Notes under the pieces: model-generated | Told to the model about the DNA's origin: nothing | What the model saw: the letters and a program-made list of their open reading frames with translations, nothing else | Database searches by the model: none | Position numbers and translations under genes: made by a program | Part shown: one piece after another, positions 24,111 to 64,000 of the stretch | Layout of the letters: each line of letters begins with the position of its first letter | How positions within the stretch are numbered: the stretch's first letter is position 1 | Assembly (NCBI RefSeq): GCF_040958095.1 | Contig: NC_091208.1 | Location: forward strand, 10,268,326 to 10,332,325 | Source of the DNA: Procambarus clarkii | Taxonomy: Eukaryota; Arthropoda; Malacostraca; Decapoda; Cambaridae | Direction of reading: 5' to 3' | Length of the DNA: 64,000 nucleotides

Positions 24111-24414
24111 TATTCTTAGGCCACTGTCACAGTCGTCAGTAAGTGGGGATCACTTAGCTACTGGGTACCATTCCTTCCTTCCATTCCACCCTCCACCCTA
24201 CAACCTTCCCAGTCCTATCCCAAATCCTTATCCTGTAACGGGATGCAGGTTTTGCAGATGCAGTGCACACTGCATCAACACAGTGCAGTGTTGAGTGCAG
24301 AAATATTGAGATATTGTTATTGAATTCAAGAAACAACCAGAAAGCAAGTGTTTAACTGTGCCTTACAATGATCACTGCACTGAGCAGTGAGTCCATTCAC
24401 ATGTCAGGGTCCCC

Positions 24415-24958
24415 ACATTCATGAGGGGTTCTGCTTAGTGCATGACGTCACTGGGGTCCTGCTTAGTGCATGACTTCACTGGGATTCCGATTAGTGCATG
24501 ACGTCGCTGGGGTCCTGCTTACTGCATGAAGTCACTGGGGTTATGCTTAGTGCATTACGTCACTGGGGTCATGCTTAGTGCATGAAATCACTGGGTCCTG
24601 CTTAGTGCATAGCGTCATTCGGTTCCTGCTTAGTGCATGACGTCACTAGGGCCCTGCTTAGTGAATAACGTCACTAGGGTCCTGCTTAGTGCTTGACATC
24701 ACTGGAGTCCTGCTTAGTGCATGACGTCACTGGGGTTATGCTTAGTGCATGACGTCACTGGGGTCCTGTTTAGTGCATGACGTCGCTGGGGTCCTGCTTA
24801 GTGCAAGACGTCACTGTGGTTCTGCTTAGTGCATGACGTCACTGGGGTCCTGCTTGGTGCATGACGTCACTGGGGTCCTGCTTAGTGCATGACGTCGCTG
24901 GGGTCCTGCTTAGAGCATGCCGTCACTGAGGTCCTGCTTAGAGCATGAAGACACTGGG
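24415..24958 (+). repeat. Module B array 1 (28 bp, about 19 copies)
   Basis: Monomer GGGGTCCTGCTTAGTGCATG followed by ACGTCACT. The TGACGTCA palindrome (CRE/ATF consensus) is intact in most copies; variants are mainly CpG changes such as GACATCA. Confidence 0.95.
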
Positions 24959-25012
24959 ATTAAGTACTCTGTGACCACCTGCTGGCTCTATGCTTAGTGC
25001 AATGTGGCCACC

Positions 25013-25405
25013 TGACCAAAACACCAACAACAAGAAACACCAGCGTGACCAAAACACCAACAACAAGAAACACCAGCGTGACCAAAACACCAACAACAAG
25101 AAACACCAGCGTGACCAAAACACCAACAACAAGAAACACCAGCGTGACCAAAACACCAACAACAAGAAACACCAACGTGACCAAAACACCAACAACAAGA
25201 AACACCAGCGTGACCAAAACACCAACAACAAGAAACACCAGCGTGACCAAAACACCAACAACAAGAAACACCAGCGTGACCAAAACACCATCAACAAGAA
25301 ACACCAGCGTGACCAAAGCACCAACAACAAGAAACACCAGCATGACCAAAACACTAACAACAAGAAACACCAGCGTGACCAAAACACTAACAACAAGAAA
25401 CAGCT
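25013..25405 (+). repeat. Module C array 1 (33 bp, about 12 copies)
   Basis: Monomer ACCAAAACACCAACAACAAG plus AAACACCAGCGTG, nearly identical between copies. It follows one and a half diverged module A copies (24968-25012). Confidence 0.95.
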
Positions 25406-26095
25406 GTTGAAAGGTGAGTTTCTGTATCAACCACTGGCCTCAGAACACGGTACACAGTAGCTAAGTGTCCCCCCACACTCTAACAACTGTGACAACCACT
25501 GTAGTACACAGTATCTAAGTTATACCTTCTCACGATCGAAAGTAAAGTTTAATCTTTTGCGTGTATATTGTACACATAAAGTTTTATAAATTTGTATTGG
25601 ATGTGTAATAAAAGTAGTGCCTAAACATATAAATAATTTTTTCGTACAAATTTTTTTTTTTAATTTTGTGCTAAAATAAAAACAATTAAATAACACAAAA
25701 CAAAATTTAAACTGATTTTTTTTAAATTGTATATTGTTAAACAAACCCTATTATCAATATTTTTGTAACGATCTAATTATATTTAAGTAATAAATAATAA
25801 AATGCTTTTCCTTCCACACTATCAAGGTTGGTCGGGGTTTCCTGTACTACCTTTATGGGTAACTTTTATATTCAATAATTCATACGTTTCATTCTAACAG
25901 AAATTTTGTGTTGATACTCTGAATACCCTATTAATATCCCCATTGTGTACCATATTCTAAGGCCACTGTCACAGTCGTCAGTAAGTGGGGATCACTTAGC
26001 TACTGGGCACCATTCCTTCCTCCACCACCTCCTTCGCCGTCCTATCCCAAATCCTTATCCTGTTATTGGATGCAGTGTCTAACAACATAACCAGT
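25406..26095 (+). repeat. Unit U1 conserved flank, AT core and pre-D segment
   Basis: Conserved with the same segments of other units (CAGAACACGGTACACAGTAG, TATTAATATCCCC, GTGGGGATCACTTAG). Just before module D, ACAACATAACCAG at 26080-26092 is the reverse complement of the start of a D monomer, a small inverted piece. Confidence 0.8.
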
Positions 26096-26525
26096 CCAGG
26101 TTATGGTGTGGCTGAGGGTGTGGAGGCTGGTGTTGATGTTGTTCAGGGCCTTGTTGAGGTTGGTAATGCAGTGCCTGGTTATGGTTATGTTGTGGCTGAG
26201 GGTGTGGAGGCTGGTGTTGATGTTGTTCAGGGCCTTGTTGAGGTTGGTGATGCAGTGTCTGGTTATGGTTATGTTGTGGCTGAGGGTGTGGAGGCTGGTG
26301 TTGATGTTGTTCAGGGCTTTGTTGAGGTTGGTGATGCAGTGCCTGGTTATGGTTATGTTGTGGCTGAGGGTGTGGAGGCTGGTGTTGATGTTGTTCAGGG
26401 CCTTGTTGAGGTTGGTGATGCAGTGTCTGGTTATGGTTATGTTGTGGCTGAGGGTGTGGAGGCTGGTGTTGATGTTGTTCAGGGCCTTGTTGAGGTTGGT
26501 GATGCAGTGCCTGGTTATGGTTATA
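26096..26525 (+). repeat. Module D array 1 (84 bp, about 5 copies)
   Basis: Monomer begins GGTTATGGTTATGTTGTGGC and contains GTGTGGAGGCTGGTGTTGAT and GGCCTTGTTGAGGTTGGTGA. The first copy is shortened. Open frames on both strands arise from the 84-bp period. Confidence 0.95.
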
Positions 26526-26576
26526 ACAATAAGCACTACAATAAACAGCATGGAAATGATAGATCCAGACAACTTC

Positions 26577-27575
26577 TGTCGGAAAATCCGACACCATTTA
26601 ATAATCATACAGATAATAGCTGTATTGTATAAACAAGTTACCCATAGAAAACGTAACTTGTAGTGGAATTACCGTCTAAAGAAAACGGGATATCATCACC
26701 ACATACCATTATAAATTGACCAGCTATTCTGCTGGGAATTATTCTTAAATACATTAGTCTTTGGACTTTACCATCATAAAAACATCTTATATAAATTAAC
26801 TTAATTATCAATATTAAAGTAGAGTAAATGTGACCCTTCTATCACTTTCTGACATGTGGACAATGTAAGCCAGGCGTCAGAGGGAGGAAGGAGGGCAGCC
26901 ATTGTTGTTTATACTAGACCAGAGGCTCACACGGGAGCAAATTCGGCTCCTGTTAATTTTACTTGGACGTAGTGTTATGGAAACCAAAGGTGTACCATTA
27001 TCAACACGCTGTCTACAAATTCAAGTTAAGAGTTCTTTCCGAAACCCATTATCTATCATTAGTGGCCATTAATGTCATTGGGTAGGGTTAGCCGGTTAGA
27101 ACGCGAAATCGCCTCAAACTAAAGGTAATTAAGCCAGGTCTTCAATGTTCCATGTACAGTATTTTCTCTGATATAACTTGTCATATATAGGTATCTGGCT
27201 TTACAGCTAGCGCCCTTTTGACAGGTCAAGACGAGGAGGAAGATTTTGTGCACCAGTTACTGGGTGACGGAAGCTACCTCAAAGAGGATAATTTGGTGTC
27301 TACACCCTAGTTATACCTGGTGGACTAGCCTGCTGTACTATAAGATAAGGAACCTCTTCAATGTATGTAGTTAATTCTGTAGTTTGATTGGCTGCATATA
27401 TATTAATTTAATAAACCCCCCTAATGTGTAGAGGATCGATTTGTGAGATTATGAGATTATTGCAGAAATACAGTCCACTTATCATTATACAAATCGCTAT
27501 CGAAGTATATAAATTAACGTAAATATAAATTCATATAAATTAAATAAATATAAATCTCACAGGTCGGTTCCCACA
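26577..27575 (+). mobile_element. Solo LTR, family 2, copy 1 (TSD ACTTC)
   Basis: 999 bases starting TGTCGG and ending CCCACA, flanked by ACTTC at 26572-26576 and 27576-27580. The uninterrupted site is seen in the sister unit at 37416-37430. The 5' end is a perfect small hairpin (TGTCGGAAAATCCGACA). AATAAA near 27411 suggests + orientation. The short direct repeats and TG...CA ends identify an LTR; the TGTCGG start is reminiscent of BEL/Pao LTRs, but the superfamily is unproven without the internal region. Confidence 0.85.
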
Positions 27576-27580
27576 ACTTC

Positions 27581-27766
27581 TTTATGCGTGATATCCAAAC
27601 TTCTGTAAACATAATTGATATCAACACGAGCGAGACAGATTTTGCAAGAGAAATTGTCAACAAGCCCATGCACTCAGCCCCGGGTCCAGACTCATGGAAT
27701 TCAATATTTATAATGAAATATTTTTCTAAACTGTATTCTAAACTAAAAAATGAGTTAGAAGCATGA
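27581..27766 (+). pseudogene. Captured LINE RT fragment, unit U1
   Basis: Reads MRDIQTSVNIIDINTSETDF followed by REIVNKPMHSAPGPDSWNS, then IFIMKYFSKL. The APGPDS-x-x-x-x-IF block is the usual start of non-LTR RT and is homologous to SMPIHSAP near 11640. Its first codons lie left of the solo LTR (26545-26576). It is part of the tandem unit, not a separate insertion. Confidence 0.75.
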
Positions 27767-28066
27767 TGATGTTGCAACACGTCTTCCTACTTGTTACACT
27801 GCAACATTGTTCAGATTTTGGACATTTCTTTTTCATTCACCTGCTATGTAGTATTTAAGTACGGGTTAAAGGGAAGATTGCGACGCCGTTGTCAAGGAGA
27901 CATCACCCTCCTCCTCCTCTTGACTGATGTTTACACATTTACGCCATTCACCGCTGTTCATTCACCGAATTCAAGAAACAACCAGAAAGCAGGTGTTTAA
28001 CAGTGACTAACAATTATCACTGCAAACAGTAGTGAATCCATTCTTATGTCAGAGTCCTCACATTCA
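27767..28066 (+). repeat. Unit U1 tail and U2 head
   Basis: Contains CAACATTGTTCAGATTTTGG, the GACGCCGTTGTCA segment, the GACTGATGTTTACACATTTA segment and then the unit head. The 0.7-kb conserved tail found in other units is missing here. Confidence 0.75.
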
Positions 28067-29395
28067 TGAGGGGTCCTGCTTAGTTCATGACGTCACTTGG
28101 GTCCTGCTTAGTACATGACGTCACTGGGGTTCTGCTTAGTGCATGATGTCACTAAGGTTCCTGCTTAGAGCATGACGTCACCTGGGTCCTTCTTAGTGCA
28201 TGACGTCACTGGGGTCCTGCTTAGTGTATGACCTCACTGGGGTCCTGCTTAGTGCATGACGTCACTGGGATTCCGATTAGTGCATGACGTCACTGGGATC
28301 CTGCTTAGTGCATGAAGTCACTGGGGTTATGCTTAGTGCATTACGTCACTGGGGTCATGCTTAGTGCATGAAGTCACTGGGATCTGCTTAGTGTATAGCG
28401 TCATTCGGGTCCTGCTTAGTGCATGACGTCACTAGGGTCCTGCTTAGTGCTTGACATCACTGAAGTCCTGCTAAGTGCATGACGTCACTGGGGATATGCT
28501 TAGTGCATGACGTTACTGGGGTTCTGCTTAGTACATGACGGTACTAGGGTCCTGTTTAATGCATGACGTAACGGGTCCTGTTTAATGCATGACGCCACTG
28601 GGTCCATGTTTATTGCATGACGTCACTAGTCCTGCTTAGTGCATGATGTCACTGGGGTCCTGCTTAGTGCATGACATCACTGGGGTCCTGCTTAATCCAT
28701 GACGTCACTGGGATCGTGCTTAGTGCATGACGTCACTGGGGTCCTGCTTAGTGCATGACGTCACTTGGATCCTGCCTAGTGCATGACTTCACTGGGGTCC
28801 TGCTTAGTGCATGACTTCACTGGGGGGGTCCTGCTTAGTGCATGACTTCATTGGGGTCCTGCTTAGTGCATGAATTTACTGGGGTCCTGCTTAGTTTAAG
28901 ACGTCATTGGGGTCCTGCTTGGTGCATGCCATCACTGGAGTCCTGCTTAGTGCATAACATCACTAGGGTCCTGTTTAAAGCATGCCGTCACTGAGGTCCT
29001 GCTTAGTGCATGACGTCACTGTGATCCTGCTTAGTGCATGACGTCACTGAGGTCCTGCTTAGTGCATGACGTCACTGGATTCCTGCTTAATCTATGACGT
29101 CACTGGGATCGTGGTTAGTGCATGACGTCACTGGGGTCCTGCTTAGTGCATGACGTCAGTGGGGTCCTGCTTAGTGCATGACGTCACAGAGGTCCTGCTT
29201 AGTGCATGACGTCTCTGGGGTCCTGCTTAGTGCATGACGTCACTAGGGTCCTGCTTAGTTCATGACATCACAGGGGTCCTGTGTAGTGCATGACGTCACT
29301 GGAGTCCTGCTGAGTGCATGACGTTACTGGGATCATGCTTAGTACATGACATCACTGGAGTCCTGGTGAGTGCATGACATCACTGGGATTAAGTA
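28067..29395 (+). repeat. Module B array 2 (about 46 copies)
   Basis: Same 28-bp monomer. Shares a distinctive series of variant monomers with array 4 (ACTAAGGTTCCT, CTTAGAGCATG, GGGATTCCGATTAG), so the two arrays are copies of one ancestral array. Confidence 0.95.
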
Positions 29396-30120
29396 CTCTG
29401 TGGCCACCTGAACAAAACACTAACAACAAGAAACACCAGAGAGACCAAAACAACAACAAGAAACACCTGTTGAAAAGTGAGTTTCTGTGACAATCACGGA
29501 CCTCAGAACAGGTACACAGTAGCTAAGTGTCCCCCACTCTAACAACTGCGACGACTAGTGTAGTAGACATTCTCTAAGTGATCCCTAATCACTGCATAGT
29601 TTAATGTGTATAATGTTTCCTAAAAATTTTTGTGTTCTCAACTCCATAACTAATATAACTAAAAGTTTCTTTTTATATAAATTAAATTATTTGACTAAAA
29701 ATTTATGTAAAAAATTTTGTGTTAAAATTCTTAGAACTTTATACGAAATAGAAAATAACTAAAAAATTTTTATTTACTTTTATATTAGTAGTAAAATTTT
29801 TATATCAATATTTTTCATGATACAAAATGTTTGTATTTAATAAATAATAAATATTACCTTGCTTATCCTCTCACACACAAATCATTGAATTGTCGTGATT
29901 TTCTATACCTCTTTAATGATTAACTTTTATATTTAATTTTTTTTTTCTTTTTTACCAGAAATTTTATGTTGATACTTTCAATGCCTTATTAATATCCGCT
30001 TTGTGTACCATATTCTTAGTCCATTGTCAAAGTTGTCAGTAAGTAAGGATAACTTAGCTGCTGGGCACCAATCCTTCCTCCCCCCCCCCCCCCGTCCAAT
30101 CCCTAATCCTTATCTTGTAA
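29396..30120 (+). repeat. Unit U2 C-flank, AT core and pre-D segment
   Basis: Only about one and a half module C copies remain (29405-29475). A C-run occurs at 30080-30093. Otherwise collinear with the other units. Confidence 0.8.
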
Positions 30121-30308
30121 TTGGATGCAGTGCCTGGTTATGGTTATGTTGTGGCTGAGGGTGTGGAGGCTGATGTTGTTCAGGGCCTTGTTGAGGTTGG
30201 TGATGCAGTGCCTGGTTATGGTTATGTTGTGGCTGAGGGTGTGGAGGCTGGTGTTGATGTTGTTCAGGGCCTTGTTGAGGTCAGTGGTGCAGTGCCTGGT
30301 TATGGTTA
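30121..30308 (+). repeat. Module D array 2 (about 2.2 copies, one shortened)
   Basis: The first monomer lacks GTGTTGATG, leaving 75 bases. Confidence 0.92.
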
Positions 30309-30317
30309 TAACAATAA

Positions 30318-30480
30318 ACTGCATGAAAGTGGAAGATCCGGAAAACTTCATTATCGTATTATCCAAACTCTTGTAAAAATAATTGATATCAACACGAGCG
30401 AGGCAGATTTTGCAAGAGAAATTGTCAACATCTCCATGCACTCGGCCCGGGTCCAGACTCAAGGAATTCAATATTTATAA
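30318..30480 (+). pseudogene. Captured LINE RT fragment, unit U2
   Basis: Reads IIDINTSEADFAREIVNISM, then loses frame at CGGCCCGGGTCC by a one-base deletion. The same deletion is present in the U4 copy (43300-43325), showing common descent. Confidence 0.72.
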
Positions 30481-30499
30481 TGAAATATTATTCTAAGCT

Positions 30500-30840
30500 A
30501 TAAAAGGAGTTTAAAAACATGATATTGCAACATATCATGATACTTAGGTCATAGAGTTAAGAAGTATGATGATGTTGCAGCTTATCCTAATATTTGAGCA
30601 TAGAGTTTAGAAGCAAGAAGATGTTGCAACATATCCTAATATTTGATCATAGAGTTTAGAAGCATGATGATGTTGCAACATGTCCTAATACTTGGTCATA
30701 GAATTTAGAAGCATGATGATGTTGCAACATATCCTAATCCTGGATCATAGAGCTTAGAAGGAAGATGACCGATGACGTTGCAACATATCTTAATACTTCG
30801 ATCATAGAGTTAGGAAACATGATGGTGTTGCAACACGTCT
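30500..30840 (+). repeat. Module E array 1 (about 50 bp, 6-7 copies)
   Basis: Monomers contain GATGATGTTGCAACATATCC, TAATACTTGG and CATAGAGTTTAGAAGCAT, with noticeable divergence and one longer copy. Confidence 0.85.
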
Positions 30841-31715
30841 TCCTACTTGTTATACTTCAACATTGTTCAGGTTTTGGACATTTCTTTCTCATTCACCTGT
30901 TATATAGTATTTAAATACTGGTTAAAAGAAAGATGCGACGCCGTTGTCATGGAGACATCCCTCCTCCTCCTGACTGATGTTTACACATTTAAGCCATAAA
31001 CTGCATACATGTCCTGTTTTATGCCCTCCAAAAGAAGCAAAGAGCCGGGTTTGTCATATAGGAAACTGGGCCTTCAGGGGTGAATTCATCGACTAAATGT
31101 CGCCTGTATCTGTGTGAGGAGCGAGGTGGTTGAGAGATGGTGTTGGGTCGCAGAGGGAGAGAGAGAGAGAGCCTCGACTCCCTGCCTTGGAAGCTCAAGG
31201 AAATAAATGATAGATTTTACAGGACGTGTTCTGAGATCATTGGGGGTGGAGAGTCCTCAAAGGAAATTTGAAAGTGATTGATGGACAACGAGTGTTTTCA
31301 TGTCCACTAATTCAGTAGTGAATAAGATAATATTAATGTAAGAAATGAATGCGTAATTACACAAAAAATTCTCATCGTCCCAAAAATAATGCTTCCTCTT
31401 TATCTTCAAAGCAATTGATTCTCAATGTTGCAAGGAGTATAGATTATCTGGAGGCATTAAGAGAGGGAAGATGGATGTCCTGTCGAGGGGAGACTAGGTA
31501 ATCTTGCTCTACAGTTGCATTGATCAGCTGAAGAAGAATTTGGGTTGCTGTAAACGTCATAGACTTGTCAACCATAGAGTGTACCTAACTGAGTGCTTCA
31601 TGCAAAGTTCTTCAGCTATGTCTGACGTCGTTGTATATCTTTATCTGTCGATCATGTCAGTGTTGCTGGTCAGCATACCTCAGGTGATGGTCTAGTTGTG
31701 TGCAGAAATATTGTG
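30841..31715 (+). repeat. Conserved unit tail, copy 1
   Basis: About 0.7 kb from TGTCCTGTTTTATGCCCTCC to GTGTGCAGAAATATTGTG, also at 43895-44600, 47385-47620 (partial) and 60245-60965. It includes a (GA)n stretch near 31160. No convincing gene is seen. Confidence 0.82.
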
Positions 31716-32163
31716 TTATTGGGATACAGTTCCTGGTTATGTTGTGGCTGAGGGTGTGGAGGCTGGTGTGGATATTGTTCAGGGCCTTGTTGAGGTTGGT
31801 GATGCAGTGCCTGGTTATGGTTATCTTGTGGCTGAGGGTGTGGAGGCTGGTGTTGATGTTGTTCAGGGCCTTGTTGAGATTGGTGATGATGTGTCTGGTT
31901 ATGGTTATGTTGTGGCTGAGGGTGTGGAGGCTGGTGTTGATGTTGTTCAGGGCCTTGTTGAGGTTGGTGATGCAGTGCCTGGTTATGGTTATGTTGTGGC
32001 TGAGGGTGTGGAGGCTGGTGTTGATGTTGTTCAGGGCCTTGTTGAGGTTGGTGATGCAGTGCCTGGTTATAGTTACGTTGTGGCTGATGGTGTGGAGGCT
32101 GGTGTTCATGTTGTTCAGGGCCTTGTTGAGGTTGGTGATGCAGTGCCTGGTTATGGTTATAAC
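31716..32163 (+). repeat. Module D array 3 (about 5 copies), joined directly to the tail
   Basis: The tail runs straight into GATACAGTTCCTGG and D monomers, without head, B, C or core. The joint is at an ATTG shared by both parent sequences (compare 44595 and 46820). Confidence 0.92.
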
Positions 32164-32179
32164 AATAATCACTACAATA

Positions 32180-32330
32180 AACAACATGAAAGTGGAAGAT
32201 CCGCAATCCATCATTATGCGTGATTTCCAAACCACTGTAAATATAATTGATATCAACACGAGCGAGACAGATTTTGTAAGGGAAATTGATAACATGCCCA
32301 TGCACTCATCCCCGGGTGCAGACTAGTGGA
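32180..32330 (+). pseudogene. Captured LINE RT fragment, unit U2b
   Basis: Reads MRDFQTTVNIIDINTSETDF then REIDNMPMHSSPGAD and a stop (TAG where others have TCATGG). More diverged than the U1 and U3 copies. Confidence 0.7.
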
Positions 32331-32369
32331 ATTCAATATTTATAATGAAATAGTATTCTAAACTAATAA

Positions 32370-32810
32370 AGGAGTTCAGAAGCATGATGATATTGCAACA
32401 CATCCTAATTCTTGGATCATAGAGTTTAGAACCTTGATGTTGCAACATATCATAATGCTTGGTCATATAGTTTAGAAAATTGATGATATATCAACATATC
32501 CTAATGCTTGGGTCATGGAGTTAGGAATCATGATGATGTTGCAACACGTCTTCTTACTTGTTAAACTGCAACATTGTTCAGATTTTGGACATTTCTTCCT
32601 CATTCATTTGTTATGTAGTATTTAAATACCGGTTAAAGGGAAGATTGCGACGCCGTTGTCATGGAGACATCACCCCTCCTCCTCCTGACTGATGTTTACA
32701 CATTTACGCCATTCACCGCCTAGCTGGTGTTTAACAGTGCCTTACAATGATCACTGCAAAAAGCAATGAATCCATTCGCATGTCAGAGTCCTCACATTCA
32801 TGAGGGGTCC
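32370..32810 (+). repeat. Module E array 2, short tail and U3 head
   Basis: About four E monomers, then the GACGCCGTTGTCATGGAGAC segment and the unit head up to GGGGTCC, where the solo LTR is inserted. Confidence 0.8.
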
Positions 32811-33826
32811 TGTTACGGCCCTCTCGGGACGCAACGGGGTTCTTACTCTGATGTTGTTAGAGGAAGTTGTATCCGACCCCAAGCCAGTAGTGGCTTTCAA
32901 GGGATGAGATCCGTGACGCAAGAAACTTAAAGGGGGAAGGGAAAGAAAGTTAAGAACTTAAGATTATAATTTACCATCACCATATAAATAATATATAAAA
33001 GAGTGCACAGGGGGAGGGGTATAAACACTATACAGGGGGATTATTCACAATCGTTGTCTTCTGCTGAAGACTCTGGTGCAAAGCTCTCGGTGCTGAGTCC
33101 TCGGTGCTTTCGTGGTCCCTTGACGAATTCTTCTGAGAAGTTGAACCTACCCTGGCCACAGGTCAGCCAAAACACAGGTCCACTGGGGGCACCGCCGTGG
33201 AGGCCGTCAACCACACGTCCAGCAGGTCTACTGGCAGGTTCCGGATCAGCAAGGCTGGTCAGGCCACTCCACGGGCGATATTAGGGTAACGCCCTAGACA
33301 GGAGCCTCGTGTGATACCACCAATCACTCTCCTGTCCTGAATACCCCAGTGGATAATCGTCTCCAGCAGTCGGTCCCGGGTAATCCTTCTACTGCCACTC
33401 CACTGGCAGGGTAACACCACAGTGTTCTTCCGGGGGACGACTTCACCGCTGCTACAGCAAAGCACAAGGTATGGAGACGGCTGCCTTGGGTTGACTGACT
33501 CGACTTCCATCACAGCAGTCCCAGGTCGACTCTGTAAGCAGACACGTCATCAATAACAGGGACACTAAAACACCTCACTTACAGGCTCAGACACAAACGC
33601 CCACCTATCCACTCCATAGATGGCGCTGGTGTCTGAGCACCACCTCACCAGAGGTCAGCAGCGGCTGTGTTGAGCGCTGAACCGGACTAGAAACTGGCCC
33701 TCGAGGCCAATACCTCCCGTCCTCGCCAGGTGTCGTCGTCCATTTGGAGGGGGTTTCGGGAGCTGACCCACAGATGGCGTGGTCGTCACTGCTCCGTGCT
33801 CGGACGCTGGATCCGGGTTCGTAACA
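32811..33826. mobile_element. Solo LTR, family 1, copy 1 (TSD GGTCC)
   Basis: 1016 bases from TGTTACGG to CGTAACA, with GGTCC at 32806-32810 and 33827-33831. Sister units show the intact site (TCATGAGGGGTCCTGCTTAG). The copy at 45543-46558 is the same length in the opposite orientation. No internal coding sequence remains. Superfamily not determined. Confidence 0.9.
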
Positions 33827-36152: not shown

Positions 36153-36844
36153 CTGTGACCACCTTAACAAAACACTAATCACAAGAAACACCTGTTAAAA
36201 AGTGAGTTTCTGTGAGAACCACTGGCCTTAGAACACGGTACACAGTAGCCAAGTGTTCCCTACTCTAACAATCGCGACGACTACTGCAGTAAACAGTCAC
36301 TTAGTGATCCCTAATTACTGCATAGGTTAATGTGTATAATTTACACTAAAAATTTTAATATATTTAGTTTCCAATAATTTAACTGAAGTTTCTTCTTATA
36401 TAAATTTAAAATTTTTATTTTATATATAAAACATAAAGTTTTGTGCTAAAATTAATAAAGCTTTCAACAAGTTTTAAAGCATTTAAAATTACTTTATTTA
36501 ATTTTATATTTTTAGCTATATTTTATATATGATTTTTTTTCATATAACACAATATATGTATTTTTTACGAATAAATATTAATATCTTGCTCATCCTCTCA
36601 CATCCACATCCTCGAACTGTCGTGGTTTTCTATATATTTTTACGATTAACCTTTATATTCAAAACTATTTTGTTTCATTTTACCAACAATTTTATGTTGA
36701 TATTTTGAATGGCTTATCTATATCCCCTTTGTGTACCGTATTCTTAGGTCATTGTCAAAGTTGTCAGTAAATAAGGATCACTTAGCTGCTGGGTACCATT
36801 TCTTCCTCCCTCCGTCCAATCCCTAATCCTTATCCTGCAATTTG
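36153..36844 (+). repeat. Unit U3 C-flank, AT core and pre-D segment
   Basis: One module C copy only, then conserved flank and an AT-rich core of about 300 bases. No gene. Confidence 0.8.
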
Positions 36845-37609: not shown

Positions 37610-37713
37610 TGATGTTGCAGCACGTCTTCCTACTTGTTACACTGCAACATTGTTCAGATTTTGGACATTTTTTTCTCATTCACCTGCTATGTAGTATTTA
37701 AATACCGGTTAAA

Positions 37714-41212: not shown

Positions 41213-41268
41213 GCAGTGCCTGGTTATGGTTATGTTGTGGCTGAGGGTGTGGAGGCTGGTGTTGATGT

Positions 41269-43392: not shown

Positions 43393-43394
43393 TT

Positions 43395-46925: not shown

Positions 46926-46939
46926 ACAATAAAGACTTC

Positions 46940-53500: not shown

Positions 53501-54326
53501 TTCTGTCTTCACCGATGGGTCTAAGTCAGCGGACGGTGTTGGCTACTCTGTTGTTTTTCCTGATCGCACTTATATGTGTCGCTTGCCTCCGGAGACTAGC
53601 ATCTTTACAGCGGAACTTTATGCTATTCTCTATGCTCTTCGTCTCCTGCTTTCTCGTTGTCAGTCTTCCTTTGTGGTTGTTGTTGACTCTCGTAGTGCCC
53701 TCATGGCTCTCGGGTGCTTTAATCCAGTTCATCCGGTAGTTGTCGAGATCCAGCATTGGCTGTTTCTCGTTCACAGTAAATTTAAGTCGGTTGAGTTTTG
53801 TTGGGTTCCCAGCCATATTGGCGTGTCTTTAAATGAGCGTGCGGATGCTGCCGCTAAGGACGCTGTCCGCTCTTGTCCCATCTCTCGTAAAGGCATTCCG
53901 TATTCCGACTTTTACCCGGTTATCCATTCCTCAGTCCTTACCCGTTGGCGGGCTTCTTGGTTGTCTGTTACTGGTAACAAGCTACGTACTCTTAAATGTT
54001 GTGTTTCCTCGTGGCCGTCCTCCTTCCACCGTAACCGGCGGTGGGAAACAGCTCTAGCGAGGTTGCGTATTGGCCATACTCGCTTAACCCATGGTCACTT
54101 GATGGAGCGCCGCCCTGCTCCTTATTGTCCTAGTTGCATTGTCCCTCTTACGGTCGTGCATGTCCTTCTTGAATGTCCTGACTTCCAGGACGAGCGTGTG
54201 TCTTGCTTTCCGACCGCCCCTCGCGGTCACCTGTCCCTCGATAGAATTCTTGGTGACTCGGATACTTTTGATATCGTTCGCCTTATGCGTTTTTGTTCTC
54301 GTATTGGCATCCTTGGTGATATTTAG
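50568..54326 (+). CDS. LINE ORF2 (endonuclease, reverse transcriptase, RNase H)
   Basis: Open frame from 50568, overlapping the ORF1 stop in the -1 frame. Residue numbers below count from 50601. AP-type endonuclease: LQWNVRG (20), CLQEP, LLGDFNCRHS (about 143) and GSDHFP (about 217). RT: LPVRKPGS, FRPIALTSCVCKLFERM, QFGFRKCRSTTD, VLFDLEKAYDT (motif A, about 586), GVPQGSVLS and YVDDL (motif C, about 676). RNase H: VFTDGSKS (about 970), FTAELYAI, VVDSRSAL and NERADAAAK, giving the D-E-D-D set. Near residue 1176 CPSC-x8-H-x4-C forms the usual C-terminal zinc motif. The protein cleaves the target and primes reverse transcription there. No ATG lies in frame before the first endonuclease motif, so initiation must be by reinitiation, frameshift or a non-AUG codon. 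Confidence 0.93.
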   Translation, partial: YSLTCSVGLSPLFLPCSLFLSFLFSSLSILQWNVRGYYANFLELQLLVSRFSPLCVCLQEPMLGARPGRFRGYSFLSPPPAIAGASNSSALLIRADVPFVPLLFPSPLHCSAARIFVGKWYTVCSIYLPPSVPLSLPDLKHLLDSLPEPVLLLGDFNCRHSLWGDVLTNTRGRLLEPFLLSSSLSLLNSGEPTHLDSRTRTLSCLDLSLCSSSLYLDFTWQVLDDLHGSDHFPILVSFFSFRPSLSFPRWQFAKADWTLFSLSATLSDLSLLPLSRALLLFHDTVFDAALRSIPRSSSRGPRKCVPWWNADCARAVRCKRAAWKKHRRRQTTDSFLFFRKASAVARRAIRTAKRECWASYVSTITSETPLAQIWKRIRKIAGKFVPDVSPVLHLHDTLVADPLQVASELGSHFSSVSSGLHLPQSFLLRKPVLESRPLDFCTHLQLPYNDPFSLSELRSALALCGSTAAGSDGIHYEMLRHLPPSTSQYLLSLYNRIWESSSVPEDWLDAVVLPVRKPGSLGTSPKDFRPIALTSCVCKLFERMVNVRLMWFLEHHHLLSPSQFGFRKCRSTTDVLVNLEVYIRTAFAAKTSVVAVLFDLEKAYDTTWRYHILSQLHSFGLRGHLPLFLRSFLSRRSFRVRLGTALSPPFQQYEGVPQGSVLSTTLFLVALNGLLSSLPSGVFSALYVDDLTLCCQGDDSPLLQRRLQLAIDAVSSWATGHGFKFSTSKTCAMTFTRKRVVLRPSLSLYGHPLEYKDSAKLLGLFLDTRLSWSPHISYLRVECSKSLTLLRVLSHTSWGADRRTLLALHSSLVLSKLDYGCPAYSSASPSTLRRLDALHHTGLRLSSGAFRSTPVLSLYVDTGFLSLQDRRDRYCLRYLARSLQHPSSRLCRALTFTPPAVPVPLHHLPLSVRLSRLQDSLSVRISDVSPRVVPSLPPWRVPLPRFCTSLTRITKAFTPPTVLKRLFLEHFSSHSRSVSVFTDGSKSADGVGYSVVFPDRTYMCRLPPETSIFTAELYAILYALRLLLSRCQSSFVVVVDSRSALMALGCFNPVHPVVVEIQHWLFLVHSKFKSVEFCWVPSHIGVSLNERADAAAKDAVRSCPISRKGIPYSDFYPVIHSSVLTRWRASWLSVTGNKLRTLKCCVSSWPSSFHRNRRWETALARLRIGHTRLTHGHLMERRPAPYCPSCIVPLTVVHVLLECPDFQDERVSCFPTAPRGHLSLDRILGDSDTFDIVRLMRFCSRIGILGDI

Positions 54327-54889: not shown

Positions 54890-56686
54890 TCATTTGCGAG
54901 GAACAGCGTGAGAAATGTACTTCTCCGGGAAAACAACGGAAGGATACTTCTTCTTGTAAGCCTCCCAGACCAAATCTTCAAGGTCGGTAGGGTTTTTGAT
55001 CCATCATAAACTCAGGAACATCGATATCGGGCGGCATCGGCCAACGCCCTAGGTCACTGACGCAAGTCGCATAACGAGGCCGGGGAGCGCCATCCACGCC
55101 CATCGAGGAAGCAGACGACACTGGAGAAGCGGACGAGGGCCGCCGAGACTGTCACGCCGTCGCACACATAGGAGCAGGGGCCGGACGACGAGACTGTAGC
55201 ACTTCCATGGATACCGCAGGAGACACAGAAGAGACTGCTGGAGACGGAAGAGGCGACAAGACCGCTGCCGAGGAAACGGGTAACGAGGAAGGGGCCACAG
55301 AACTCTCAGAGCGAGCATTCTTTCTCCACACCATCACCAGGCCACCCCACTCACCACCAACCACAGCAGGGGGAACCACCCCCCACGAAGAACCGGAGCC
55401 ACCCCACGCAGGCAACGCACCTGAAGCAGGACCCTCGGACACCAGACCAGGAAGGGAGGCCGAAACGCCGGCACCGGCATCCTCAGGCAAGCGTACCTCC
55501 GCCACCACCATAGTGTGCACCACATCCGGAGCCACCCCACTGTCAACGGAAGGACGACACTCGTCTAAGTCGCCAACTTCAGCCCACGCAGAAGAACGCC
55601 GGGAACGCTTAGGCTCGGGCTGCACATCATCAGACCCGGAGGCAGACTCAGTGACCCGCGCAGCACTAGCCGGGCGAACCGACGCACGCCGCAGTACGGC
55701 AGCCTCCTCAACCACATGGGGCACCAGGCCAGGCACAGGAGGGAATGTTGGATCCACCCCAGCTCCCAGCACAGCCGGAACAGACGGCGAGGGTGCAGGG
55801 ACCGGGACAGACACAGCAGAGGAAGAACTGGAAGACGAGGGGTCCGAGCAAACGGCAGTCGGAAGAGGCTCAGAGACACCAGTCGGAGCAGGCGGAGCAT
55901 TAGGCGAGGACACAACCTCCGGAGGAGATGCGGCAACAACAGGGGGCGCAACAGGCGGAGCAACAGCTGACACAGAGGGCACCTCCTCAGCCGAAGAGAC
56001 GTCCACACCCACCGAATCATCCCCCACAGGAAGGGGCGGAAAATCCTCCTCACTGAAGAGATTCACCGGTGCAACAGCAGGCGCAGAACAGGCAGCAGCC
56101 TGATGGCCCAAAAGACCACAACGATAACACGTCCGCGGCTGGCGGGCGTAAAACACCCGAACGTTGTACCCCATAAGGCGCACAGAGGACGGAATATCCG
56201 CCCGGAGTCTCATGCCCAGGGTGCGAATGTTAGACCTCACACCCTTAAGAGGACTAGAAGACACCACGTTCACCCTCACACTAACTACCGCGCCAAACCG
56301 CCGAAATCCCGCCGTAGCAGAGCCTCTGGAAACTCCAAGGGAGCCCCATGCACACTGATGTAAGTAAGTGCACCACTTCTATCCGAGAGGGTTACAGTGC
56401 CCGCACCATCCGGCAGGGGTAGTGTCCGCCCCTCGTATCGCCGGAGAAAATCGCGATACGCCACCTCCTCCGTGAACTTCACAATCGCCGTAAGGCGATT
56501 GTGAAGTTCAACTACCATCAACTGGTGTTGATGGTAGTTGGTAACGGCCAACTCGACCCCATAAATCTCAAACACAGGGACAGAGAGCATTTCACAAGCC
56601 AGTGCAATCTCTGGGTAACCAGCCCGCACAGAAAACTCTAGTCCCACAGACTGAGCCCGGACGACAGGGGGTAGAGGGACCCCCAT
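54890..56686 (-). pseudogene. ORF1/gag of the gag-only element (frameshifted)
   Basis: Reads from ATG at 56686 (MGVPLPPVVRAQSVGLEF) through an RRM-like region with GRTLPLPDGAGTVTLSD and GALTYISVHGAPLEFPEALL. It shifts frame near 56281 and continues with RVNVVSSSPLKGVRSNIRTL and one CCHC knuckle CYRCGLLGHQAAAC (56088-56129). A long Ser/Pro/Val-rich stretch follows, then shifts near 55155 and 55000 to a C-terminal piece DLEDLVWEAYKKKYPS and a stop at 54890-54892. The order (RRM, knuckle, low-complexity tail, short C-terminal motif) suits the ORF1 of LINEs in the I/Nimb or L1-Tx1 range. At least three frameshifts make it non-functional. Two perfect hairpins lie inside it at 56473-56540. Confidence 0.78.
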
Positions 56687-57849: not shown

Positions 57850-59015
57850 TTTAAGTACACTGTGGCCGCCTGCTCGCTCGAAGCTTATAGCTCTGTGGCC
57901 ACTTGTTGGCTCTAGGCTTACTGCTCTATGGCCACTTTGTCGGAAAATCCGACACCATTTAATATCATACAGATAATAGCTGTATTACCAACAAGTTACC
58001 CATAGAAAACGTAACTTGTAGTGGAATTACCGTCTATAGAAAACGGGATATCATCACCACATACTATTATAATTCACCACCTATTATGGTGGGAATTATT
58101 CTTAAATACATTAGTCTTTGGACTTTACCATCATAAAAACATCTTATATAAATTAACTTAATTATCAATATTAAAGTAGAGTAAATGTGACCCTTCTATC
58201 ACTTTTTGAAATCTGGACAAAGTAAGCCAGGCGTCAGAGTGAGGAAGGAGGGAGCCATTGTTATACGAGACCAGAGGCTCACACGGGAGCAAATTCGGCT
58301 CCTGTTAATTTTACTTGGACGTAGTGTTATGGAAACCAGAAGTGTACCATTGTCAACACGCTGTCTACAAATTCAAGTTAAGTGTCTATCCGAAACCCGT
58401 TTATCATTCATTTATGGCCATTAATGTCAGGATATAGGGTGACCCGGTTAGATCGCGAAATCGCCTCAAACTAAAGGTAATTAAGCCAGGTCTTCATGTT
58501 CTATGTACTGTATAGTGTTTTCTCTGATATAGCTTGTCATATATAGGATTCTGGCTTCACAGCTAGCGCACTTTTGACAGGTCAAGACGAGGATGCAAGA
58601 TTTGTGCACCAGTTACTGGGTGATATGGAAGCTACCTCAAAGAGGATAATTTGGTGTCTACACCCTAGTTATACCTGGTGGACTAACCTGCTGTACTATA
58701 AGATAAGGAACCTCTTCAATGTATGTAGTTAATTTTGTAGTTTGATTGGCTGCATATATATATAAACTATTAAACCCCCCCTAATGTGTAGAGGATCGAT
58801 TTGTGAGATTATGAGATTATTGCAGAAATACAGTCCACTCATTATTATACAAATTGCTATCGAAGTATATAAATTAACGTAAATATAAATTCTATATATA
58901 TTCATATAAATTAAATAAATATAAATCTCACAGGTCGGTTCCCACACACTTGTTGGCTCAAGGTTTACGCTCTGTAACTACCTTTTGGCTCTAGGCTTAG
59001 TGCTATGTGGCCACC
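57850..59015 (+). repeat. Module A remnant (about 4 diverged copies), split by a solo LTR
   Basis: GTGGCCGCCTGCTCGCTCGA, GGCCACTTGTTGGCTCTAGG and similar units to 57937, resuming at 58952 up to the ACCAAAATACCAATAAC of a short module C trace. Confidence 0.8.
57938..58946 (+). mobile_element. Solo LTR, family 2, copy 2 (TSD CACTT)
   Basis: 1009 bases, TGTCGG to CCCACA, same orientation as 26577-27575. CACTT at 57933-57937 and 58947-58951. Differs from copy 1 by scattered substitutions and small indels. Confidence 0.88.
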
Positions 59016-59674
59016 TGACCAAAATACCAATAACAAGAAACACCATCGTGACCAAAACTGTGACGACCACTGTAGTACACAGTATCTCAGTGATCCCTAC
59101 TCACTGAAAACTGTAAAGTTTGATGTGTACATTGTACACCAAAAATAATTGCAATATTTTTTACAGCCATCCAAGGCAGCCATAATCTATAGAAGTTTTA
59201 ACGTTTCATCGTATATAAATAATATATTTCTTTTAAATTATTAAATAAATAAAAGTTTTTGCTAAAATTTTTAAATTTCTTAACACTTAAAAAAAAGATT
59301 TACTTGGCTTTTTATATTTTTATCTTATTAATAAAATCGTAATATAAATATATTTGCAAATTACTAACTGTTGTATTTAAAAATAAATAAATTATGACAT
59401 CATGCTCTTTCTCTCACACTCATAAGGTTGTCTGGTCGTGATTTTCTATACCGCCTTAATGGGTAACTTCAATATTCAAAATTTTTATGTTTCATTCCAC
59501 AAGAAATTTTGTGTTGATACTTCGAATACCTTATTAAAATCCCGTTTGCGTACCGTATTCTTAGGCCACTGTCATAGTCATCAGTAAATGGGGATCACTT
59601 AGCTAATGGGGACCATTCGTTCCACACCCCCCCCCCCTCCTCCATCCAATCCCAAACCCTTATCCTGCAATTGG
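59016..59674 (+). repeat. Unit U6 C-flank, AT core and pre-D segment
   Basis: Distinct subtype (ATACCGCCTTAATGGG, AAAATCCCGTTTGCGTACCG) whose closest relative is the inverted copy at 63270-64000. Confidence 0.8.
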
Positions 59675-59790
59675 ATGCAGTGCCTGGTTATGGTTATGTT
59701 GTGGCTGAGGGTGTTGAGGCTGGTGTTGATGTTGTTCAGGGCCTTGTTGAGGTTGGTGAATCAGTGCCTGGTTATGTTATAACAATAAAC
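59675..59790 (+). repeat. Module D array 7 (about 1.3 copies)
   Basis: One D monomer followed by a partial copy with GGTGAATCAGTGCC. Confidence 0.9.
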
Positions 59791-59799
59791 ACTACAATA

Positions 59800-60045
59800 A
59801 ACAGCATGAAAGTGGTAGATCCGGACAACTTCTTTATGCGTGATATCCAAACTTCTGTAAATATAATTTATATCAACACGAGCGTAGTAGAATTTGCAAC
59901 AGAAATTGACAACATGCCAATGCACTCAGCCCCGGGTTCGGACTCATGGAATTCAATATTTATAAAGAAATATTTTACTAAACTGAAAAAAACACAGTTG
60001 AGAACCTTGATGATGTTGCAAAATATCCTAATACTTGGGTCATAG
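59800..60045 (+). pseudogene. Captured LINE RT fragment, unit U6
   Basis: Reads MRDIQTSVNIIYINTSVVEF, MPMHSAPGSDSWNSIFIKK and continues in frame to NILILGS. Subtype shared with U5. Confidence 0.75.
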
Positions 60046-61075
60046 AGTTTAGAAGCATGATGATGTTGCAACACGTCCTCCTACTTGTTTCACTTCAACA
60101 TTGTGAAGATTTTGGACATTTCTTTCTCATTCACTTGTTATATAGTATTTAAATACCGGTTAAAGGGACGATGCGACGCCGTTGTCACGGAGACATCACC
60201 CCTCCTCCTCCTGACTGATGTTTACACATTTAAGCCGTAAACTGCATATATGTCCTGTTTTATGCCCTCCAAAGGAAGCAAACAGCCGGGTTTGTCATTT
60301 AGGAAACTGGGCCTTCAGAGGATAATTCATCGTCTAAATGTCGCCTGTATCTGTGTGAGGAGCGAGGTGGTTGAGAGATGGTGTTGGGTCGCAGAGGGAG
60401 AGAGAGAGAGAGCCTCGACTCCCTGCCTTGGAAGCTCAAGGAAATAAATGATAGATTTTACAGGACGTGTTCTGAGATCGATGGGGGGGGGGGTGGGGAG
60501 GGTCCTCAAAGTAGATTTGAAAGTGATTGATGGACAACGAGTGTTTTCATGTCCAATAATTCAGTAGTGAATAAGATAATATTAATGTAAGAAATAAATG
60601 CGTAATTACATATAAAATTCTCGTCGTCCCAAAAATAATGCTTCCTCTTCATCTTCAAAGCAATTGATTCTCAATGTTGCAAGGAGTATAGATTATCTGG
60701 AGGCATGAAGAGAGGGAAGATGGATGTCCTGTCGAGGAGAGACTAGGTAATCCTGCTCTGCAGTTGCATTGATCAGCTGAAGAAGAAGTTGGGTTGGTGT
60801 AAACGTCTTAGACTTGTCAACCATGGAGTGCATCTAACTGAGTGCTTCATGCAACGTGATTCAGCTATGTCTGACGTCGTTGTATATCTATATCTGTCGA
60901 TCATGTTAGTGTTGCTGGTCAGCATACCTCAGGTGATGGTCTAGTTGTGTGCAGAAATATCGTGATATTGCTATTGAATTCAAGAAACAACCAGAAAGCC
61001 GGTGTTTAACAGTGCCTTTCAATGATGACTGCACAGAGCAGTGAGTCCATTCGCATGTCAGAGTCCTCACATTCA
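60046..61075 (+). repeat. Conserved unit tail, copy 4, and U7 head
   Basis: Collinear with 43721-44711, with a G-run at 60483-60492 and a (GA)n stretch near 60397. Confidence 0.82.
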
Positions 61076-61392
61076 TGAGGGGTCTTGCTTAGTACATGAC
61101 GTCACTGGGTTCCTGCTTAGTGCATGATGTCACTGGGGTCTTGCTTAGTGCGTGACGTCACTGTAGTCCTGCTTAGTGTATGACGGCACTGAGGTCCTGT
61201 TCAGTGCAAGACGTCACTGGGGTCCTGCTTAGAGCCATACGTCACTGGGGTCCTGCTTAGAGCCATACGTCACTGGGGTCCTGCTTAGTACATGACGTCA
61301 ATAGGTTCCTGCTTAGTGCATGACGTCACTGGGGTCCTGCTTAGTACATGACGTCAATAGGTTCCTGCTTAGTACTTGACGTCATTGGGATT
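61076..61392 (+). repeat. Module B array 7 (about 11 copies)
   Basis: 28-bp monomers, including two copies of an unusual AGAGCCATACGTCACTGG variant at 61231 and 61259. Confidence 0.94.
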
Positions 61393-61410
61393 AAGTACAC
61401 TGTGGCCACC

Positions 61411-61738
61411 TGACCAAAACACCAACAACAGGAAACACCAGCGTGACCAAAACACTAACAACAAGAAACACCAGCGTGACCAAAACACCAACAACAAGAA
61501 ACACCAGCGTGACCAAAACACCAACAACAAGAAACACCAGCGTGACCAAAACACCAACAACAAGAAACACCAGCGTGACCAAAACACCAACAACAAGAAA
61601 CACCAGCGTGACCAATACACCAACAACAAGAAACACCAGCGTGACCAAAACACCAACAACAAGAAACACCAGCGTGACCAAAACACCAACAACAAGAAAC
61701 ACCAACGTGACCAAAACACCAACAACAAGAAACACTTG
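61411..61738 (+). repeat. Module C array 2 (33 bp, about 10 copies)
   Basis: Nearly identical to module C array 1 at 25013-25405, although about 36 kb apart. Confidence 0.95.
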
Positions 61739-62494
61739 TTGAAAGATGAGTTTCTGTGACTACCACTGACCTCAGAACACGGTACACAGTAGCTATGTGT
61801 CCGCCACTCTCTAACAACTGCGATGACAACTGTAACAAACAATCTGTAAGTGATCCCTAATCACTGCATAGTTTAATGTGTATAATGTACACTTAAATTT
61901 GTTTTGCATTAACTCTATAACTAATTTAACTGTTGTTGCTGTTAAAAATTCGCTACCTGGAACAAAAAGTTCCAAGTAACACGGGCTATGGTGAGCCCGT
62001 AGATAGTTATTTTAACGTAACTAAAGTTTCTTTTTATATAAATAAAATTATTTGATTAAAAATTTAGGTAAAAAAAATTTGTGCTGAACTTCTTTAAACT
62101 TTTTACAAAAAAAAAAAAATACGTAAAATTTTTTTGTTTACTTCTATATTAGTAATACAATTTTTATATCAGTATTTTTCAGGGAACAAAATGTTTGTAT
62201 TTAATAAATAATAAATATTAACATCTTGCTCATCCTCTCACATCTACATCGTTGAATTGTCGTGGTTTTCTATACCTCTTTAATGATTAACTTTTATATT
62301 CAATTTTTTTTTTTGTTTCATTTTAACAGAAATTTAATGTTGATACTTTCAATGCCTTATTAATATCCCACTTTGTGTACTGTATTCTTAGGCCATTGTC
62401 AAAGTTTAGTAAGTAAGTAAGGATAACTTAGCTGCTGGGCACCATTCCTTCCTCACCCCCGTCCAATCCCTAATCCTTATCCTGTAATTGGATA
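61739..62494 (+). repeat. Unit U7 C-flank, AT core and pre-D segment
   Basis: Contains the 85-bp extra segment (61925-62010) shared only with U5, and the uninterrupted CTTGCTCATCC site. Confidence 0.8.
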
Positions 62495-63252
62495 CAGTTC
62501 CTGGTTATGTTGTGGCCGAGGGTGTGGAGGCTGGTGTTGATGTTATTCAGGGCTTTGTTGAGGTTGGTGATGCAGTGCCTGGTTATGGTTATGTTGTGGC
62601 TGAGCGTGTGGAGGCCGGTGTTGATGTTGTTCAGGGCCTTGTTGAGGTTGGTGGTGCAGTGTCTGGTATGGTTATGTTGTGGCTGAGGGTGTGGTGGCTG
62701 GTGTTGATGTTATTCAGGGCTTTGTTGAGGTTGGTGATGCAGTGTCTGGTTATGGTTATTTTGTGGCTGAGGGTGTGGAGGCCGGTGTTGATGTTGTTCA
62801 GGGCCTTGTTGAGGTTGGTGGTGCAGTGTCTGGTATGGTTATGTTGTGGCTGAGGGTGTGGAGGCTGGTGTTGATGTTATTCAGGGCTTTGTTGAGGTTG
62901 GTGATGCAGTGCCTGGTTATGGTTATGTTGTGGCTGAGCGTGTGGAGGCCGGTGTTGATGTTGTTCAGGGCCTTGTTGAGGTTGGTGGTGCAGTGTCTGG
63001 TATGGTTATGTTGTGGCTGAGGGTGTGGAGGCTGGTGTTGATGTTATTCAGGGCTTTGTTGAGGTTGGTGATGCAGTGTCTGGTTATGGTTATGTTGTGG
63101 CTGAGGGTGGGGAGGCCGGTGTTGATGTTGTTCAGGGCCTTGTTGAGGTTGGTGGTGCAGTGTCTGGTATGGTTATGTTGTGGCTGAGGGTGTGGAGGCT
63201 GGTGTTGATGTTATTCAGGGCTTTGTTGAGGTTGGTGATGCAGTGTCTGGTT
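62495..63252 (+). repeat. Module D array 8: 167-bp higher-order repeat
   Basis: Alternating 84- and 83-base monomers (GGTTATGG versus GGTATGG); identical phrases recur at 62679, 62846, 63013 and 63180. Monomer types also alternate in GTTATTCAGGGCTTTG versus GTTGTTCAGGGCCTTG. The missing base shifts the frame once per dimer. Confidence 0.95.
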
Positions 63253-63256
63253 CGGT

Positions 63257-64000
63257 CAGCCACAACATAACCATAACCAGGCACTGCATAAAATTGCAAG
63301 ATAAGGATTTGGGATTGGACGGAGGAGTGGGAGGGGGGTGGAACGAATGGTGCCCATTAGCTAAGTGATTCCCATTTACTGATGACTGTGACAGTGGCCT
63401 AAGAATACGGTACGCAAACGGGATTTTAATAAGGTATTCGAAGTATGAACACAAAATTTCTTGTGGAATGAAACATAAAAATTTTGAATATTGAGGTCAC
63501 CCATTAAGGCGGTATAGAAAATCAAGACTAGACAACCTTATGAGTGTGAGAGAAAGAGCAGGATGTCAATATTTATTTCTTTTTAAATACAACAGTTCGT
63601 ATTTTGCAAATACATTCATATTACGATTTAATTAACAAGATAAAAATATTAAAGGAAAGCAAATAGTTTTTTTATGTATTAAGATATTTATAAATTTTAG
63701 CAAAAACTGTTACTTGTTTAATAATTTATAAAAAAATATTATTTATATAAGATGAAACGTTTATACAATAGATTTTTTTTTTTTTTTTTTTTTTTAACAA
63801 GAGTTGTTACATTCTTGTATATTGTGGATAGTTCCAGTGGATGCTTTAATATTGCAAAAGTTTATGGTGTACAGTGTACACATCAAACTTTACAGTCTTC
63901 AGTGAGTAGGGATCACTGAGATACTGTGTACTACAGTGGTCGTCACAGTTTTGGTCACGATGGTGTTTCTTGTTATTTGTATTTTGGTCAGGTGGCCACA
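63257..64000 (-). repeat. Inverted macrosatellite unit (copy of U6 type)
   Basis: Reverse complement of the D start, pre-D segment, AT core, C-flank and GGCCACCTGACC junction of U6 (59006-59700). It includes a T-run at 63773-63795 and runs off the right edge. Confidence 0.88.

Follow-up and report, generated by a model that had tools for sequence, protein, structure and literature searches.

A probable composite macrosatellite of retroelement origin, restricted to one chromosome of the crayfish Procambarus clarkii

Examination of a 64,000-nucleotide stretch of the Procambarus clarkii genome (hereafter the window; C59:10268326-10332325, C59 being contig NC_091208.1) reveals a family of composite tandem units that quite probably constitutes a chromosome-restricted, retroelement-derived crayfish macrosatellite, one that has multiplied through unequal exchange and segmental duplication and is probably devoid of a sequence-specific function. 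C59 accounts for 34,769,288 bp of the 4,027,284,227-bp assembly, whose 2,308 contigs are numbered by falling size (from 65.5 Mb for C1 to 4.9 Mb for C100 among the 20 contigs examined). Between 23.8 and 63.3 kb of the window, units (numbered U0 to U7 from the left) stand head to tail at a spacing of roughly 3-6 kb, and Tandem Repeats Finder (TRF), self-BLAST and a module map reveal their order: preB, an array of 28-bp B repeats, 33-bp C repeats, an AT core, an array of 84-bp D repeats, a fragment of the reverse transcriptase (RT) of a long interspersed nuclear element (LINE), an array of ~49-bp E repeats and a tail. The modules of different units in the window are 67.5-100% identical, which indicates repetition far beyond chance and no simple copy artefact. 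This bears out the multi-kilobase composite unit with a recurring module order that an initial annotation had described, except in two respects: the A module, which it placed inside the units, is there at most a vestige, besides a short degenerate run flanking a solo long terminal repeat (LTR) at 57.9-59.0 kb, and C, claimed as an internal array throughout, forms one in only two units (12 and 10 copies) and elsewhere has 1-2 copies. The E arrays and the tail are present as described, and so is the variation in array length: the seven B arrays in the window range from 3.8 to 83 copies (TRF), and D occurs at eight places in 1-9 copies, the place in U4 being split by an LTR element; D arrays elsewhere on C59 reach 20 copies. 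The RT fragment, said to be in all units, is found at seven places, namely in every unit keeping the D-to-tail interval, and its presence in 7/7 of these supports the further claim that its capture preceded amplification.

Since alignment searches score the best candidates only and exact-tag counts are whole, exact tags were used to follow the distribution of the family. An exact 32-mer from tail2, the second segment of the tail, matches the genome at 63 places, all of them on C59, while its reversed control has no match; these tags are spread over 13.5 Mb (1.6-15.2 Mb of C59) and appear again at 28.5 and 32.9 Mb. A 24-mer from tail1 has 202 matches and a 56-mer covering two B units has 204, in each case with at least 100 on C59 (all among the matches listed) and with a control count of 0. 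The tens to thousands of clustered copies by which the initial annotation would recognize a macrosatellite are thus present. The D tags are listed by contig number, which indicates that C1-C58 are free of tail1 and B tags. Alignment searches gave the same picture: a tail query returned 41/41 rows on C59 (best 40 of 257 candidates scored) and a query joining AT3, the last part of the AT core, to D and the RT fragment returned 72/72 rows there, at 81-100% identity where most of the query matched (best 40 of 3,135 scored). By contrast, a solo LTR of the window returned 41 rows on 24 contigs (best 40 of 5,028 scored). Twenty 10-kb background loci all lacked the composite unit. Together, these results give the element both marks of a macrosatellite, kilobase units standing head to tail and confinement to one or two chromosomes, here one as judged by the 32-mer. 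The proposed tandem duplication of the larger unit thus stands for the head-to-tail units, although these are scattered in many clusters along 31 Mb of C59 instead of lying in a single block.

Two of the modules can be traced to different LINEs. The RT fragment (~195 bp, in sense orientation) clearly matches the LINE reverse transcriptase region at the protein level in 45 codons: the U1 and U3 copies are 62% identical over 45 residues to the open frame of a LINE in locus L021 (E 4e-12 against the whole window), and that frame continues into the reverse transcriptase. Five of the seven copies match this LINE well, and those of U4 and U2 do so in short pieces only (E 4e-4 and 0.015, respectively, in a smaller search). 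A relative lies inside the window at 11.6-12.5 kb and another piece, 87% identical over 125 bp, in L024; beside the latter (L024:7600-8300) is a frame that we take to resemble a Penelope-like reverse transcriptase. Comparison of the fragment with PDB gave three matches, all at chance level (best E 0.46).

Array D, read on the opposite strand, matches a QHP-rich 84-bp (28-residue) tandem coding repeat in the first open reading frame (ORF1) of a second LINE (L027), situated ahead of a CCHC knuckle. Of the several independent minisatellites that the initial annotation saw in the unit, D therefore has to be set apart as a coding repeat captured antisense. The frames following ORF1 carry Exo_endo_phos (1.4e-10) and RVT_1 (4.8e-12) domains; ORF1 itself has no Pfam match, its CCHC label being given by motif. 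An ORF1 query taken outside the repeat returned 40 rows on 25 contigs and none on C59 (best 40 of 213 candidates scored). The repeat is present in 8/8 fetched LINE loci, one of which is L027's own place and three of which are nearly alike in the repeat, at 86.5-96.4% identity to a D dimer; in seven of the eight it shares one open frame with the knuckle, and in L037 the frame with the knuckle excludes it. Because the repeat is part of a dispersed LINE, the capture probably ran from the LINE to the macrosatellite. Exact D tags number 1,854 and, among 100 matches listed, 34 lie on C1-C58 and 66 in C59:1.62-2.45 Mb. As in a retroelement-derived satellite, then, the monomer is homologous to a dispersed LINE, with the element dispersed and the expansion local. 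D was rejected as a living coding repeat, silent changes being in excess in none of its frames: in every frame a share of at least 0.32 of the shuffles attained the count seen. This test covered 67 distinct changes in 91 monomers, after removal of stretches that matched the reference at fewer than 76 of 84 positions. A group of 13 exact D tags within 5 kb at C15:22625362-22630428 suggests a further, separate expansion of the ORF1 repeat.

Comparison of units along C59 gives indications of how they multiplied and aged. At 4.03 Mb (L030) two consecutive ~4-kb units share 98.1% identity across 4,144 bp; the module order of the window recurs in L029, L030 and L031, and the D tags at 2.350-2.445 Mb are mostly 5.5-9 kb apart. 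Blocks of several units are also duplicated, in direct or inverted orientation, at distances of Mb along the chromosome: among the first 100 tail1 tags, 10 collinear runs of three (seven direct and three inverted, with blocks common to some of them) recur elsewhere on C59 at a spacing within 3%, whereas 1,000 shuffles gave 0.6 such runs on average and never more than 5. Within the window U2 and U4 form a duplicate pair (preB 100%, AT core 97.5%, RT fragment 96.9%, tail1 99% and tail2 97.6% identical). Their B arrays align at 95.8%, yet the repeats inside each match at 83% (TRF; 76-77% by a gap-sensitive lag count), and we conclude that B was amplified before the block was duplicated. Sister pairs vary by module (U1 with U3 and U5 with U6 for the RT fragment; U2 with U4, U5 with U7, and U6 with an inverted piece at the right end for the AT core), a pattern suggesting that the breakpoints of exchange fell within units. 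The AT cores of different units are 67.5-97.5% identical, and the D monomers mostly 92-100% identical to one reference (77-84 of 84 positions), with a few out-of-register stretches lower.

In light of these observations, we propose that slippage and unequal exchange would lengthen and shorten the B, C, D and E arrays at rates particular to each, that unit number would rise by unequal crossing-over, and that segmental duplication and inversion would move blocks along the chromosome. The units themselves are probably immobile, which would explain their confinement to one chromosome. The likeliest role would be independent of sequence, namely as passive heterochromatin-like bulk in a region tolerant of duplications. 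Several points weigh against this interpretation. For contigs after C59 only the 32-mer informs on restriction, and this exact tag could miss diverged copies on other contigs; Hi-C scaffolding might also have pulled repeat-bearing pieces onto one scaffold. Single pieces of the unit do occur on other contigs: the RT fragment in L021 and L024, D in L027, and part of the segment joining C to the first part of the AT core (C/AT1) in L011, L012, L018 and L022. Finally, near-uniform D arrays beside AT cores differing by up to 32% could reflect selection or active homogenization rather than neglect.

Nothing observed demands a function; judged from the sequence, a centromeric role would be the main alternative, with regulatory and sex-linked readings weaker. 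The unit might be centromeric or pericentromeric DNA of C59 retained for that role, which we regard as unlikely but worth weighing: the family is clustered in a large tandem domain (1.6-15.2 Mb) that includes inverted pairs of blocks, resembling the macro-dyad arrays proposed for Tribolium in the available portion of that account (PMC13081366), and the consulted sections on Lathyrus describe retrotransposon tandem repeats that expand to satellites mainly in primary constrictions (PMC7004042). Against such a role, the 32-mer tags extend over 13.5 Mb and recur at 28.5 and 32.9 Mb, and the units are full of other elements. The window also lacks a CENP-B-like box, a weak point; arthropods need not have one. 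A more speculative idea, to which we give little credence, is that a private macrosatellite domain would give one of about 94 look-alike chromosomes a sequence identity for homologue pairing or for its centromere, with D homogenized along 31 Mb while its neighbours drift, through a process acting on arrays seeded by a LINE coding repeat.

It is decidedly improbable that the family is a regulatory macrosatellite of the Dxz4 type, whose B arrays would bind a CREB/ATF-type factor and organize or transcribe the locus. The 28-bp unit contains TGACGTCA, presumably a CREB/ATF site, and 139 of the 141 such sites in the window fall inside the B arrays, which comprise about 232 units. Mouse Dxz4, in the consulted part of its description, is made up of about seven units, each 3.8-5.7 kb long and containing an internal variable-number tandem repeat (VNTR; PMC3491370). 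However, a match of only 83-87% between the B units of most arrays and copy numbers of 4 to 83 speak against tight constraint. Very doubtful too is a non-autonomous transposon, for example Helitron-like, that carries internal tandem repeats and inserts beside itself. The consulted part of PMC9659126 names Helitron-type elements that have tandem repeats at their centre as one source of tandem repeats, but the 32-mer lies 63/63 on one contig whereas a true mobile element of the window scores on 24, and the partial copies break at varied module points and not at constant ends (no systematic search for ends was made).

There is equally scant likelihood that repeats were collapsed or misplaced onto one scaffold during assembly. 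A repeat-rich 4-Gb genome in 2,308 contigs would favour such an error, but the window's modules differ between units (67.5-100% identity), individual units have LTR insertions of their own flanked by target duplications, and the other 2,307 contigs all lack the 32-mer. Non-recombining regions typically show chromosome-restricted repeats and block duplications, both of which are seen here, and the unit could on that ground mark a satellite-rich, non-recombining sex chromosome region. This we hold to be the least probable of these alternatives, as one primer of a published P. clarkii sex marker (PMC12842422, consulted in part) matches once, at C23 31.14 Mb and not on C59, with no match for its control; the point relies on one study and one primer searched genome-wide. 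The portion of that study consulted places the marker at 6.02 Mb of Chr38, coordinates that differ from the present assembly in naming or build, and the primer and 16 bases of its partner are absent from 49 loci that include C59:6024651-6025180 and the same interval on nine other contigs. A ribosomal DNA spacer or other RNA-gene repeat was dropped, since the window yielded neither a tRNA nor an Rfam family reaching the gathering score.

The macrosatellite proper can be followed unit by unit; modules lie on the plus strand unless stated, and array limits are those of TRF and other limits those of the module map, except where another basis is given. Outside the main block, a true A array of 33-bp repeats (16 copies) occupies 17779-18318 and is followed by part of the C/AT segment at 18364-18462 (73.5%), the whole spanning 17779-18462. 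Positions 200-270 of C/AT1 are dispersed (L012, L018 and L022) and carry a CGGGCT...AGCCCG inverted motif; this is perhaps a small dispersed repeat captured by the unit. Left of 24.11 kb there is one further, partial AT core (U0, AT2-AT3, 23777-24248; 70-71% identical to other AT cores by self-BLAST and 78-80% in its 3' half, with AT3 matches), with preB close behind and without D, RT fragment, E or tail. U1 begins with this preB (24290-24424, 90.4% identical to 44578-44712), followed by a B array of 19 copies (24425-24958), the 12-copy C array (25013-25402), an AT core (25403-26098), five D copies (26099-26524; antisense to the LINE ORF1 repeat by the ORF1 match), the RT fragment (27576-27767, placed by its protein match) and a short tail (27780-28069) in which positions 1-162 of tail1 are followed by preB from its position 33.

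U2 has a B array of 47 copies (28070-29387) collinear with that of U4 (95.8% identity across 1288 aligned bp and 142 gap positions), two C copies and an AT core (29409-30123), D (30124-30309), an RT fragment 89.4% identical to that of U3 (30344-30502), 6.3 E copies of 49 bp (30519-30835) and a full tail of tail1, tail2 and the start of preB (30836-31721; 99.0% and 97.6% to 43719-44577). An extra partial D-RT-E-tail follows at 31.7-32.8 kb (U2b, 31734-32803, by the module map), with five D copies, RT fragment, E, short tail and preB. U3 comprises 83 B copies (33827-36142), a C remnant with AT core (36168-36842), 6.3 D copies (36843-37371) and the RT fragment (37416-37610; protein match to the L021 LINE), and a short tail with preB (38655-38857) leads to U4. 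The latter has 58 B copies (38858-40482), C, AT core and the start of D (40504-41268; AT core 97.5% to U2) and, beyond the LTR element, the remaining D, RT fragment, E array (43390-43718), full tail and preB (43128-44712, TRF and module map). In U5, a B array of 10 copies with a 55-bp higher-order period (44713-44991) precedes C and the first part of the AT core (45013-45542), and AT3, a single D, the RT fragment, a short E, tail1 and a B remnant lie past a solo LTR (46559-47748, TRF and module map). U6 (59016-60943, by the module map) contains C, an AT core of diverged type, D, RT fragment, E and full tail. U7 has preB and 11 B copies (60944-61389), the 10-copy C array with AT core (61411-62502) and nine D copies (62503-63252) with a 167-bp higher-order period of two monomers, as found by TRF and monomer comparison. 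An inversion at about 63.26 kb is followed by an inverted AT core and C piece on the minus strand (63279-63990; AT core 91.5% to that of U6), indicating that the right end of the block is a rearrangement; units restart 3.4-9.6 kb past the window's right edge (L029).

The block is discontinuous, being interrupted by five LTR insertions and by ~10 kb of LINE-bearing sequence (47.75-57.9 kb). The insertions lie within units of the window, with 4-5-bp flanking duplications, and four of the five are now solo LTRs, assigned by the module map: a family II copy in U1 (26577-27575, plus strand, 5-bp flank ACTTC), whose family has an LTR pair in L022; a family I copy between U2b and U3 (32811-33826, minus strand, 5-bp target duplication GGTCC); another of family I in the AT core of U5 (45543-46558, plus strand, 5-bp target duplication CTCAT), a family present on 24 contigs; and one at 57938-58946, flanked on both sides by the short degenerate A run. 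The fifth, inside the D array of U4 (41269-43127, 4-bp flank ATGT), has two 335-bp LTRs that are 99.4% alike by self-BLAST and an antisense 407-residue frame with an integrase core; as there is only ~1.2 kb between its LTRs, it is probably internally deleted. Among the 20 background loci, the family II LTR is also found in L022 and L028, and L017 and L025 each have a short stretch of AT3. Within the LINE-bearing sequence, a LINE at 48634-54326, which may be a recent insertion, has an ORF1-like frame of 647 residues, with a knuckle motif seen by eye and no Pfam match, and a 1,252-residue frame with endonuclease, RVT_1 and RNase H domains; another frame of 408 residues on the minus strand (55152-56378) has a zinc-knuckle match under the Pfam cut-off. 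Further left, three tandem arrays that do not belong to the family, of 192, 84 and 64 bp, lie at 19129-21464, the 84-bp one consisting by eye of two 42-bp halves and having no match to D, and several broken frames at 1168-9132 presumably resemble DIRS-type retroelements.

Parts of this organization have precedents. Among decapods, the complex satellite of the Bermuda land crab (Gecarcinus lateralis) is similar in description, with a kilobase unit and internal amplified segments. To go by the consulted portions of the respective accounts, retroelement-derived satellites (PMC7004042), LINE fragments within satellites (PMC9659126) and single-chromosome macrosatellites (PMC3491370) are already known. 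In Lathyrus sativus, short arrays inside dispersed retrotransposons similarly expand to longer satellites at restricted places, but the sources there, according to the relevant sections, are LTR retrotransposons (PMC7004042), whereas here it is a LINE ORF1 coding repeat, captured antisense and forming one of several arrays in a larger duplicated unit on one chromosome. The chicken HinfI/CR1 and Phodopus PROsat/LINE-1 satellites, as presented in the pages consulted (PMC9659126), share a LINE ORF2 fragment within an amplified satellite; the crayfish unit differs in that two LINEs contribute to it, one on each strand, and in having several internal minisatellites. Mouse Dxz4, in the available description (PMC3491370), is likewise a single-chromosome tandem array of 3.8-5.7 kb units, with length varying via an internal repeat and more than 5% divergence between units, but it is one locus of ~7 units with one ~900-bp VNTR, as against the many clusters along 31 Mb and the four types of internal array seen here. 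For crayfish satellitomes, P. clarkii included, the main text of PMC13130569, as far as consulted, reports many minisatellites and Cambaridae satellite units of up to 4,898 bp; it deals in short-read clusters and, in that part, describes no composite or chromosome-restricted unit, and B, C or D may be listed as separate families in its supplements. In the open-licence literature we found no description of this mix, in which a LINE ORF1 coding repeat captured antisense is joined by several internal arrays that differ in age, in a unit spread over 31 Mb of a single chromosome and confined to it; nor, among the papers listed, was there a fitting account of the land-crab satellite, of ORF1-derived internal repeats or of crustacean chromosome-specific satellites.

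The crayfish family is an example of a satellite born from mobile-element fragments and staying on a single chromosome. It preserves stages of satellite birth in one genome, from a coding minisatellite in a dispersed LINE, through antisense capture with loss of constraint and arrays of 1 to 20 copies, to a composite duplicated along one chromosome. It makes testable why some tandem repeats of retroelements turn into satellites and what holds a repeat on one chromosome. Furthermore, in P. clarkii, for which the portion of PMC12842422 consulted gives 2n = 188 and whose chromosomes are hard to distinguish, the tail is a candidate chromosome-specific probe for fluorescence in situ hybridization.

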